Part shown: piece after piece, positions 12,689-33,228 of the stretch
Layout: the number at the start of each line of letters is the position of its first letter
How positions within the stretch are numbered: position 1 is the first letter of the stretch
Assembly: GCA_031281275.1 (NCBI GenBank)
Contig: JAITFP010000072.1
Span: forward strand, 1 to 64,000
Source: Candidatus Fibrimonadaceae bacterium
Lineage (GTDB): Bacteria; Fibrobacterota; Fibrobacteria; Fibrobacterales; Fibrobacteraceae
DNA: 64,000 nucleotides
Direction: 5' to 3'
Made by a program: the position numbers and the translations under genes
Notes under the pieces: generated by a model
Databases searched by the model: none
The model's input: the letters and a program-made list of their open reading frames with translations, nothing else
Told to the model about the DNA's origin: nothing

Positions 12689-12920
12689 TATCTATAAAAC
12701 ACTTTTCCTATTCTCTCAATGTGTTCTATTAAATTCTCGTTTTTTATGTTTGAAAATAATGAAATATCCACCAAATCAGTAAGTTAGTAAATTTTGGAAA
12801 TTTAAAGGTGTTTAAGAAAAATGCACATTTTTGCAAACACTTGTTTGCAAAATTCACTTTTCTGAATTTTTTTCCCGTTTTTTTCCGTCTAATAGGTAAC
12901 GAATGAAAATGGAGGTATAT

Positions 12921-13315
12921 ATGAAATATAATCCTGATCGGCATGGCAGGCATTCTATACGTTTACGTGGCTATGATTATGCGACCACTGGGGCGTATTT
13001 TGTTACGATATGTTTGAATCGGCGGATTTCACGTGGGCAACGTGGGTATGGGCAATATGGGTATGGGCAACCACGTTGGGTTGCCCAAATACACGTGATT
13101 GCACCAACCGCAATTTGCCATATTTAATTGACCGTTTCAAAACCGGAACAACGAACAAATATATAGACGGGGTTAAAACAGCCAAATGGAAACCATTTCA
13201 TAAAAAACTATGGCAACGTAATTATTATGAATATATAATCCGTGATGAGGCGGCATACGCAAGAATTGCAGAATACATCCGTAATAACCCTATTTTATGG
13301 GAAAAGAAACATTAA
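12921..13315 (+). pseudogene. Decayed REP-associated tyrosine transposase (RAYT, Y1_Tnp)
   Basis: N-term MKYNPDRHGRHSIRLRGYDYATTGAYFVTICLNRR and C-term KLWQRNYYEYIIRDEAAYARIAEYIRNNPILW in different frames; HUH core missing, replaced by a GGGTATGGGCAA microrepeat. Confidence 0.8.
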
Positions 13316-30579: not shown

Positions 30580-33228
30580 ATGTCTAATACACCAAAAACC
30601 TCTGCGGAAATCCGCAATTCTTTTATAAAATTCTTTGAAAGCAAAGAACACTTATTCGTACGCTCTTCACCCGTGGTTCCTCAAGATGACCCAACCTTAA
30701 TGTTTATAAATGCCGGCATGAATCAGTTCAAAGCCTGCTTTTTGGGAGATAACCCGAACAACTACAAAAGGGTGGCAAATTCGCAAAAGTGCATTCGCGT
30801 TTCGGGCAAGCACAACGATTTAGACGAAGTGGGGCGCGATACTTACCACCACACGTTTTTTGAAATGCTCGGAAACTGGAGCTTTGGAGACTATTATAAA
30901 AAAGAAGCCATTGAATGGGCTTGGGAACTTTTGACTGAGGTTTGGAAACTTCCCAAAGAGAGATTATTTGTAACCGTTTATCAAGACGATGACGAGGCTT
31001 GGCAAATTTGGAAAAATGTAAGCGGCTTGCCCGATGCTCGCATAATGCGGTTTGGGGAAAAATCGAACTTTTGGGAAATGGGAGATACAGGTCCTTGCGG
31101 TCCTTGCTCCGAAATACACTACGACAAAGGCGACCTTGCAACGCAAGAAGCAACTTTTGCAGACCCTGTGCAAGGCGTGAATGGGGCGAATGCACGCTAT
31201 ATTGAAATTTGGAATAATGTGTTTATGCAATTTGAACGCATAAAAAGCGGCGAGTTGCTTCCTCTGAAAAATAAAAATGTCGATACGGGAATGGGTTTTG
31301 AGCGAGTGTGCGCAATTTTGCAAGGCAAGGATTCTAATTACGAAACAGATGTGTTTTCTCCAATCATAAACAAAATAGCCGAGCTTTCCGGTGTGCCATA
31401 CAATGCAGACCAAAGCGGAATGCCTCACCGAGTTGTTGCAGACCACCTTCGCTCACTCAGTTTCGCAATAGCAGACGGCGCACTCCCAAGCAATGATGGG
31501 CGCGGCTATGTGCTTCGCAGAATTTTGCGCAGAGCGAGCCGCTACGCCCGTCTTTTAAACCAAAAAGAACCATTCATAAACCGCCTAGTGCCAACCTTGG
31601 CTCAAACAATGGGCAAAGCCTTCCCCGAAATACGCGAGCGCGCAGATTTTGTAGCAGAGGTAATCCGCTCCGAAGAGGAGAGATTTATAAGAACCCTAGA
31701 TGCTGGCTTGGAAAGGTTTGAGAAAATAGCCACTAGCCACTCCCTAATCCCAGGCACCCAAGTATTTTTGCTCTACGACACTTACGGTTTTCCACCAGAC
31801 CTAACACGCATTTTAGCAGAAGAAAAAAATTTGCAAATAGATGAGGCGGGTTTTGAAACAGAGATGGAAAAGCAAAAGGAACGTGCTAGAGCTTCGCAAA
31901 AACAGGGACTTTCTGCCATAGGCTCCGAAGGCTGGACTGTTTTTGGAGAAGGTTCAACCGAATTTTTGGGTTATGAGGCAAGCACGGTACAGGTGAAAAT
32001 TTTACGCTATAAAGAAGATAAGGGTTCTTATTCAATTGTTTTAGATCGCACACCTTTTTATGCGGAAATGGGCGGAGAAATAGGCGAAAGGGGAACTCTT
32101 GAAAATTCTGGTGCAACGCTCAAAGTTTTTGATACCGTAAAAGTAAATGATATTTGGATTCACCGCGCAAAACTTTTGAGCGGAGAAGTGAATGGGCAGG
32201 AATATACAGCAAGCGTAAATTTGGAAGAAAGGGCAGCAACGCGAAAAAACCATTCGGCTACGCATTTGCTCCAAGCAGCTTTGCGCAAGGTTGTGGGTGA
32301 GCATGTTACCCAGCAAGGCTCAAGGGTTGCTCCCGAAAATTTGCGTTTTGACTTTACCGCCTTTGCCGCATTAACAGCAGAGCAAATAAAAACAATAGAA
32401 AATCTGGTGAATGAGAAAATTCAAATGTGCCTGCCCATATCCACAGAGGTGATGCCTGTGGAAAAAGCAAAAGAGAGCGGAGCTATGGCGCTTTTCGGTG
32501 AAAAATATGGTGCAGAAGTCAGAGTTGTTTCAATGGAAAATTTTTCCAAAGAGTTTTGCGGAGGCTTGCACGCAAAAAACACCGGCGAAATAGGAGTATT
32601 CCGCATTTTGAGCGAAAGCAGCGTTAGCGCAGGGGTTCGCAGGATAGAAGCGACAACGGCATTCGGTGCGTTAGATAGTTTTAGGGAAGAGGCGAAAGTT
32701 GTATCTTCGCTCAGGGAGCAGTTCAAGGCAAAAACGGAAAATATTTTAGAAAGGGTGTCTTTGCTAACTGAGCAATTAAAAGCGAGCGAAAAACTTGCAG
32801 CAGATTTGCGGGCAAAAATCGCGGAAAGCCAGAGCGCGGATTTGTTCAAAAATTCCATTCAAGTAAAAAACATTCCCCTTTGGGTTTCAAAAGTGAGCAT
32901 GGAATCCAGCGAATTTGCCGCTCTTTTGGAAGGTGCGCAAAAAACAATGCCTTTGCAGGGCATAGCGGTTGTGGCAAATGTTAGTAGGGACACGATTAAT
33001 CGTGTCCCTACTGGCACAATAGCGGTGGTTGTTCATGCGGAGTTGGTTAAGAAAAAAATTAGCGCAGGAGATATAGTTAAAAAATTAGCCGAGCTTGCCG
33101 GAGGCAAAGGTGGAGGCAGACCAAATTTGGCGCAAGCTGGGACAAAAAATCCAGATAAGATAGATGAGGCTTTGGGAGCGGCGGAAAGGATTATTGTAGA
33201 ATTGATCAATGGAGGTAAAAATGGATAA
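30580..33228 (+). CDS. alaS: Alanyl-tRNA synthetase
   Basis: SSPVVPQDDPTLMFINAGMNQFK, TYHHTFFEMLGNWSFGDYYK, NHSATHLL, C..H zinc site, GGGRPNLAQAG. Confidence 0.98.
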   Translation: MSNTPKTSAEIRNSFIKFFESKEHLFVRSSPVVPQDDPTLMFINAGMNQFKACFLGDNPNNYKRVANSQKCIRVSGKHNDLDEVGRDTYHHTFFEMLGNWSFGDYYKKEAIEWAWELLTEVWKLPKERLFVTVYQDDDEAWQIWKNVSGLPDARIMRFGEKSNFWEMGDTGPCGPCSEIHYDKGDLATQEATFADPVQGVNGANARYIEIWNNVFMQFERIKSGELLPLKNKNVDTGMGFERVCAILQGKDSNYETDVFSPIINKIAELSGVPYNADQSGMPHRVVADHLRSLSFAIADGALPSNDGRGYVLRRILRRASRYARLLNQKEPFINRLVPTLAQTMGKAFPEIRERADFVAEVIRSEEERFIRTLDAGLERFEKIATSHSLIPGTQVFLLYDTYGFPPDLTRILAEEKNLQIDEAGFETEMEKQKERARASQKQGLSAIGSEGWTVFGEGSTEFLGYEASTVQVKILRYKEDKGSYSIVLDRTPFYAEMGGEIGERGTLENSGATLKVFDTVKVNDIWIHRAKLLSGEVNGQEYTASVNLEERAATRKNHSATHLLQAALRKVVGEHVTQQGSRVAPENLRFDFTAFAALTAEQIKTIENLVNEKIQMCLPISTEVMPVEKAKESGAMALFGEKYGAEVRVVSMENFSKEFCGGLHAKNTGEIGVFRILSESSVSAGVRRIEATTAFGALDSFREEAKVVSSLREQFKAKTENILERVSLLTEQLKASEKLAADLRAKIAESQSADLFKNSIQVKNIPLWVSKVSMESSEFAALLEGAQKTMPLQGIAVVANVSRDTINRVPTGTIAVVVHAELVKKKISAGDIVKKLAELAGGKGGGRPNLAQAGTKNPDKIDEALGAAERIIVELINGGKNG
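32983..33012. repeat. Perfect 30-bp palindrome inside alaS
   Basis: AGTAGGGACACGATT|AATCGTGTCCCTACT. Confidence 0.95.

Follow-up and report, generated by a model that had tools for sequence, protein, structure and literature searches.

A perfect palindrome is translated within alaS

The window, a 64,000-nucleotide (64-kb) stretch of a Candidatus Fibrimonadaceae contig, carries a complete alaS gene for alanyl-tRNA synthetase (AlaRS; 30580-33228, + strand, 882 aa), whose product matches the Pfam families tRNA-synt_2c, tRNA_SAD and DHHA1 and which is the sole alaS match in the genome. Direct reading of the window showed that positions 32983-33012 (no strand assigned), with the sequence AGTAGGGACACGATTAATCGTGTCCCTACT, form a perfect 30-bp palindrome, self-complementary at 30/30 positions and located exactly where the earlier note had placed it. 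Its conserved 28-bp core (32984-33011; GTAGGGACACGATTAATCGTGTCCCTAC) is paired at 14/14 positions, with GTAG base-paired to the CTAC of the opposite end. The second-longest palindrome of the window is 18 bp, and about 1e-4 perfect 30-bp palindromes would be expected by chance in 64 kb (hand arithmetic, with a complementarity chance of ~0.26 per position). The palindrome had also been described as translated in frame inside alaS, and the complete 882-aa ORF agrees with this: the codons AGT AGG GAC ACG ATT AAT CGT GTC CCT ACT give SRDTINRVPT as AlaRS residues 802-811. The frame starting with GTA is open as well and the third frame contains TAG; because the element is palindromic, it is read identically in either orientation.

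The DHHA1 (C-Ala) domain of AlaRS (32962-33198, + strand; residues 795-873 by Pfam) carries the insertion at a beta-hairpin turn. In an AlphaFold2 model covering AlaRS residues 696-882 (mean pLDDT 86.9), the insert corresponds to model residues 107-116, at the predicted turn between strands 100-108 and 115-123. A fold search matched this model to C-Ala domains of AlaRS from Archaeoglobus and Aquifex (2zvf, 3wqy and 3g98), and a PDB sequence search of AlaRS returned no coverage of the insert. Predicted structure and fold search thus agree with the surface-loop position that had been proposed. The simplest reading of the model is that the insert lengthens a surface beta-hairpin, and it is likely to be neutral for AlaRS.

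The insertion is confined to two sister genomes

AlaRS orthologs were taken from 40 related genomes, and the aligned set spans the same genus, family and class; the genomes of the close relatives are all MAGs. Among the aligned orthologs, the insert is common only to this genome (G000) and its sister G011 (92% amino-acid identity) and is absent from all others. AlaRS of G006, also 92% identical, lacks the insert and is 6 residues shorter at the site, as are nearly all other aligned orthologs. The insert-free loop within the genus mostly reads N-(I/V)-Q-S-(D/S)-S-G-(S/T)-I-A-V, and that of G007 is even shorter. At the DNA level, GTT/ATT-CAGAGCAGTTCT-GGC in G006 stands against GTT-[30 bp]-GGC in G000, so that the palindrome replaces about 12 bp of native loop relative to the closest empty ortholog and the net gain is 6 residues. 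The earlier note had proposed a test for a lineage-specific insert of about 8-10 residues; the lineage specificity holds, with only two genomes carrying it, and the net gain is smaller. The insertion is not clean, some residues of the native loop having been lost. A search of the empty sites for target-site duplications yielded none that could be delimited, since sequence of the native loop had been replaced. Taken together, the palindrome is almost certainly an in-frame, lineage-specific insertion of a dispersed palindrome.

G000 and G011 share 86% identity across alaS and agree at 207/340 four-fold sites (61%), and their palindromes are identical at 30/30 positions. The identity reaches beyond the 28-bp core, by 7 bp on the left and 24 bp on the right. 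Such a pattern could result from a recent insertion in the common lineage, from transfer of the segment or from selection at the nucleotide level.

The palindrome is one copy of a dispersed repeat

The alaS palindrome is one copy of a dispersed 28-mer, GTAGGGRCRCGATTAATCGYGYCCCTAC. Among 111 family genomes, exact copies number five in this genome, two in G011 and one in G006; the other nine genomes of the genus and the remainder of the 111 contain none. Allowing up to 3 mismatches raises the counts to eight in this genome (five exact and three diverged) and four in G011 (two exact and two diverged), and G006 stays at one. A second copy in this genome lies in frame in a CydC-like ABC transporter gene and uses the same reading frame as in alaS, and other copies are intergenic. 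In purL of G011 the 28-mer is also in frame, there in the other open frame. A search across GTDB genomes gave 91 stretches that contain the identical 28-mer, in many phyla, including Fluviicola and other Flavobacteriales, Prevotellaceae, Chloroflexi, Spirochaetes, Gracilibacteria, WOR-1, Omnitrophota, a cyanobacterium and others; one exact copy is in Nodosilinea nodulosa. The suggestion that the palindrome is a dispersed repeat is therefore well founded, with seven more copies in the genome and many in other bacteria.

In a Candidatus Gracilibacteria MAG, the 28-mer lies in frame in the DNA repair gene radA (L049) and in another ORF (L115), so genic insertion is not limited to the genus. In Fluviicola loci (for example L054, L090 and L125) the 28-mer is mostly intergenic, and its A/T-rich flanks mirror each other perfectly over 5-11 bp, an arrangement that resembles bidirectional terminators. 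For such intergenic copies with A/T-rich extended stems, a role in termination was weighed; it is inapplicable inside genes.

GTAG/CTAC palindromes are frequent in coding sequences of the genus

A wider pattern, GTAGRGRY-N10..14-RYCYCTAC, matched 145 sites in 12/12 genomes of the genus (2-47 per genome), against a single match for the reversed control pattern. The cores vary (GATAATTATC, GCAATGCATTGC, AAGGCGCGCCTT, GTTGCATGCAAC, CGATTAATCG and others) and nearly all are self-complementary; in every core copy searched, GTAG stands at the 5' end of both strands. Copies were scored as intragenic when the ORF around them was 180 aa or longer and extended for 20 aa or more on either side. By this measure, 47/90 distinct copies examined together with their flanks are in frame within long ORFs; they use only the two frames free of stops, one of them in 34 cases and the other in 13. 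The copies are not a random sample, since 47/90 come from G007. Random positions in the same loci qualify as intragenic 74% of the time, and genes are therefore only mildly avoided.

The confirmed conserved host genes are serS, pheT, ileS, uvrA, mutL, tsaD, miaA, mnmE and priA. Curated families add queG and nuoG, some host-family matches lying below the curated cut-off because the ORFs are partial, and other hosts encode a UDPGP-type uridylyltransferase, glycosyltransferases and a DegT aminotransferase. The putative host ORFs of L205, L206, L220 and L227, which are among the 47, had no match in the family search, and the copy in L173 may precede the true start codon. These termite-gut relatives thus carry many such insertions in essential genes, and the host proteins are presumed to be functional on grounds of conservation. 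In G007, loci L175, L182, L183, L201 and L206 encode a repeated C-terminal domain (...YNLQGKRVHSRDAMHRVST.GEMQIPVQSKGMYIVKAG) with the same palindrome at a turn; as several paralogs share it, the insertion there probably spread with the domain.

The same loops receive different inserts

Besides alaS, cydC and purL, 15 host genes were compared at the insertion site among sister genomes. In most sisters the palindrome is missing and the loop is shorter or different, and several have another insert in the loop that elsewhere holds the palindrome. GTAG-type palindromes whose cores differ are found in pheT of four genomes, and in queG and in cydC the palindromes of two or more genomes likewise differ in their cores. 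The tsaD loop holds a GTAG palindrome in two genomes; in four others it is occupied by (CAACTCT)n heptamer repeats, which translate as NSQLSTL. Heptamer inserts are also present in miaA, mnmE, purL and a nadD-like gene, making (CAACTCT)n a second class of coding repeat in the loops of essential proteins. Since palindromes and heptamers occupy the same loops across sisters, variable loops repeatedly receive different repeat types. The heptamer-repeat loci are L301, L340, L338 and L339 (tsaD), L318 and L319 (miaA), L328 and L330 (mnmE), and L324 and L325 (purL).

RAYT genes contain the element

Genes resembling those of REP-associated tyrosine transposases (RAYTs) were detected in 11/12 genomes of the genus at E <= 0.001, with NF047646 as the best family, mostly below its curated cut-off, and with some of the matches being IS200 proteins or fragments. 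For six of the six RAYT-like proteins tested, NF047646 was the best family and ranked above IS200 where both matched, with scores of 43-71 bits against a curated NCBIfam cut-off of 80 bits; one gene of G002 reached 96.5 bits, and the intact RAYT of the genome studied here matches only below the cut-off. A search with PF01797 missed the RAYTs of G007 and yielded only the IS200 TnpA in this genome, which is why NF047646 was needed as the RAYT detector. That TnpA (L037, contig C21) is an intact IS200-type protein (NF033573, E 5e-39) with hairpins near its ends, and is the sole Y1_Tnp match above the Pfam cut-off in the genome.

An association with RAYTs, as in a REPtron, was found in several hosts. 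A RAYT gene of G007 has perfect 28-bp GTAGAGACGCAATGCATTGCGTCTCTAC palindromes on both sides and a third, variant copy in frame. The intact RAYT of this genome (contig C66), in which the MPDHIHGI motif is kept, harbours a pair of degenerate copies inverted relative to each other, GGACGCGATAAATCGCGCCCCTAC and GTAGGGGCGCGATTTATCGCGTCC, which are closely similar to the alaS element. Three other bacteria (WOR-1, Bacteroidetes and Prevotellaceae MAGs) have RAYT genes with an exact, in-frame copy of the ATTAAT element. Studied RAYTs cleave single-stranded GTAG-ended hairpins (PMC8266576). With the element found inside or beside RAYT genes of this genome and of three other bacteria, RAYT-driven spread is the best-supported mechanism, and on these sequence associations a RAYT probably mobilises the palindrome.

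The window itself holds a decayed RAYT-like transposase relic (12903-13315, + strand), 20 kb from the alaS palindrome, with intact-looking N-terminal (MKYNPDRHGRHSIRLRGYDYATTGAYFVTICLNRR...) and C-terminal (...KLWQRNYYEYIIRDEAAYARIAEYIRNNPILW) parts, the latter matching NF047646 at 13109-13294 (E 4.6e-9). Its frame is broken and the catalytic HUH segment is missing. Inside it lies a relic GGGCAACC...GGTTGCCC palindrome, GGGCAACCACGTTGGGTTGCCC (13065-13086, no strand assigned), the core of the GTAGGGGCAACC... repeat type.

Origin of the alaS palindrome

The flanks of the repeats are themselves often mirrored. Palindromic pairing of the flanks amounted to 312 paired positions for all genus copies (203 +/- 12 expected; 0/5000 shuffles) and to 183 for the genic copies (108 +/- 9.5 expected; 0/5000 shuffles). 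Six copies have flank extensions of 7-13 bp, against 0.33 expected, with 13 bp on each side in queG, 12 bp in the DegT gene and 11 bp in a TolB-like gene. The queG copy (L212 of G007, about 1506-1559) is in this way a 54-bp perfect palindrome inside a gene, made up of the GTAG repeat and 13 bp of mirrored flank per side. In uvrA of G009, a hairpin (GCCGCC-CCTCT-GGCGGC) is already present at the empty site, which fits insertion at a hairpin tip. In pheT of G010 (L289) and G008 (L282), the left half or the left flank is repeated in direct orientation beside the palindrome, and an inverted copy lies on the right; such duplications are a signature of polymerase template switching and fit fold-back copying. 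Hairpin-tip targeting and fold-back copying may both operate.

The reading we favour, with a probability of roughly 0.8, is that the alaS palindrome is a copy of a small mobile repeat, probably moved by a RAYT, that landed in frame in an AlaRS loop. The repeat, 28 bp long, REP-like, GTAG-ended and fully self-complementary, would be non-autonomous; in the common lineage of this genome and G011 it would have entered a variable surface loop and displaced part of it. Its likely mover would be a RAYT, an HUH tyrosine transposase recognising single-stranded GTAG-ended hairpins. The insert could persist because its length of 30 bp is divisible by three and it brings no stop into this frame, so that AlaRS gains only an extended beta-hairpin turn. 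The flanking dyads would either have pre-existed, under hairpin-tip targeting, or have arisen later by fold-back copying.

Alternatively, the repeat could be REP-like and yet owe both its arrival and its changes at sites in genes not to insertion catalysed by a RAYT but to replication template switching and recombination, with flanks copied by fold-back and cores exchanged between the conserved GTAG/CTAC ends. Native loop sequence replaced instead of split, the long inverted flanks of queG, DegT and the TolB-like gene among the six extended cases, the direct and inverted duplications in pheT, and the different cores in the same queG, pheT and cydC loops of sisters all speak for this route; it leaves identical 28-mers in unrelated genes and unrelated phyla unexplained and gives no reason for the element in RAYT genes, and the pre-existing uvrA hairpin of G009 fits targeting. 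We consider this route unlikely, though worth weighing, beside movement by a RAYT.

It is far less probable that the palindrome is a functional cis element of the alaS mRNA or DNA (a hairpin for pausing, mRNA stability or autoregulation) under nucleotide-level selection. The full identity of the palindrome between the diverged alaS genes of G000 and G011, and its continuation into the flanks, would be compatible with such selection, but the identical tract outruns the palindrome, so that a recent segment transfer or a recent insertion explains it equally well; moreover, the element is absent from alaS of all other relatives aligned and recurs in genes unrelated to alaS and at intergenic sites. 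That the palindrome arose by chance in a native AlaRS loop, or is an artefact of assembly, has the MAG status of the genome as its single argument; this reading has a negligible probability and is refuted by the chance expectation given above, the absence from orthologs and the seven further copies in the genome, and the same insertion recurs in an independently binned sister MAG.

Relation to known repeats

GTAG and CGTC repeats are known in more than 80 species, and GTAG repeats are linked to RAYTs (PMC3733652). Repeats inside ORFs, including uvrA, DNA repair and tRNA synthetase genes, and insertion into small palindromes have been reported (Di Nocera et al. 2013, PMC3733652). The earlier note had named Rickettsia as a precedent for protein-coding palindromes; the Rickettsia part is correct, and in-frame GTAG repeats outside Rickettsia, also in tRNA synthetase genes, had been missed (PMC3733652). 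The phenomenon is thus already of a known kind, since GTAG repeats inside genes have been on record since 2013 (PMC3733652) and the in-frame palindromes of Rickettsia for longer. What differs here is the full symmetry, the roughly 50% intragenic placement, RAYTs with the element in their own frame, and the turnover of inserts in the same loops.

With GTAG-tagged REPs, the element shares short palindromes, a 5' GTAG, the RAYT association, several families per genome, and copies in genes and within small palindromes. Here, however, GTAG is paired with CTAC at both ends in perfect symmetry, with no loop and no unpaired one-sided tag, and the copy number is low with about half of the examined copies intragenic, whereas those REPs are mostly extragenic and of high copy number; it is therefore a REP-like variant and not a plain GTAG REP. 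The hosts, of Fibrobacterota type, are outside the phyla listed for GTAG repeats in PMC3733652. As general background, the small dispersed repeats of cyanobacteria are compact mobile palindromes too, some of them genic.

Like the Rickettsia palindromic elements (RPEs) and the WPEs of Wolbachia, the palindromes lie in frame in conserved genes, are absent from orthologs and are translated into tolerated peptides. RPE-4 and RPE-6 are classed as CGTC repeats, which have no dedicated transposase (PMC3733652), and carry CGTC ends, whereas the present element has GTAG/CTAC ends and occurs within RAYT genes; the element is not an RPE, the end motif setting it apart. The RAYT/TnpA-REP family (NF047646; PMC2817692, PMC8266576) corresponds in its HUH tyrosine transposase, in the repeats flanking the gene and in the role of GTAG in cleavage by studied members, but here the RAYT genes also bear the repeat inside their own reading frame.

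A broader proposal, which we put forward tentatively as possible though rather doubtful, is that the GTAG/CTAC palindromes of this genus constitute a coding transposable element, for which insertion into essential genes would be normal, with the same surface loops overwritten repeatedly by different palindrome families or by 7-bp tandem repeats, and with the RAYT carrying its repeat in its own reading frame. If true, RPE-like coding palindromes could be assigned a definite transposase, and their insertion would proceed at hairpin tips or by fold-back. A coding palindrome comparable to those of Rickettsia, present in essential genes as well as in RAYT genes, makes a mechanism of spread testable. 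Sister genomes with different mobile inserts in the same loops offer a natural experiment in the conversion of selfish DNA into protein sequence. For annotation, strings such as VGARLIAPL, SRDTINRVPT and VETDNYPSL flag repeat DNA rather than conserved motifs.
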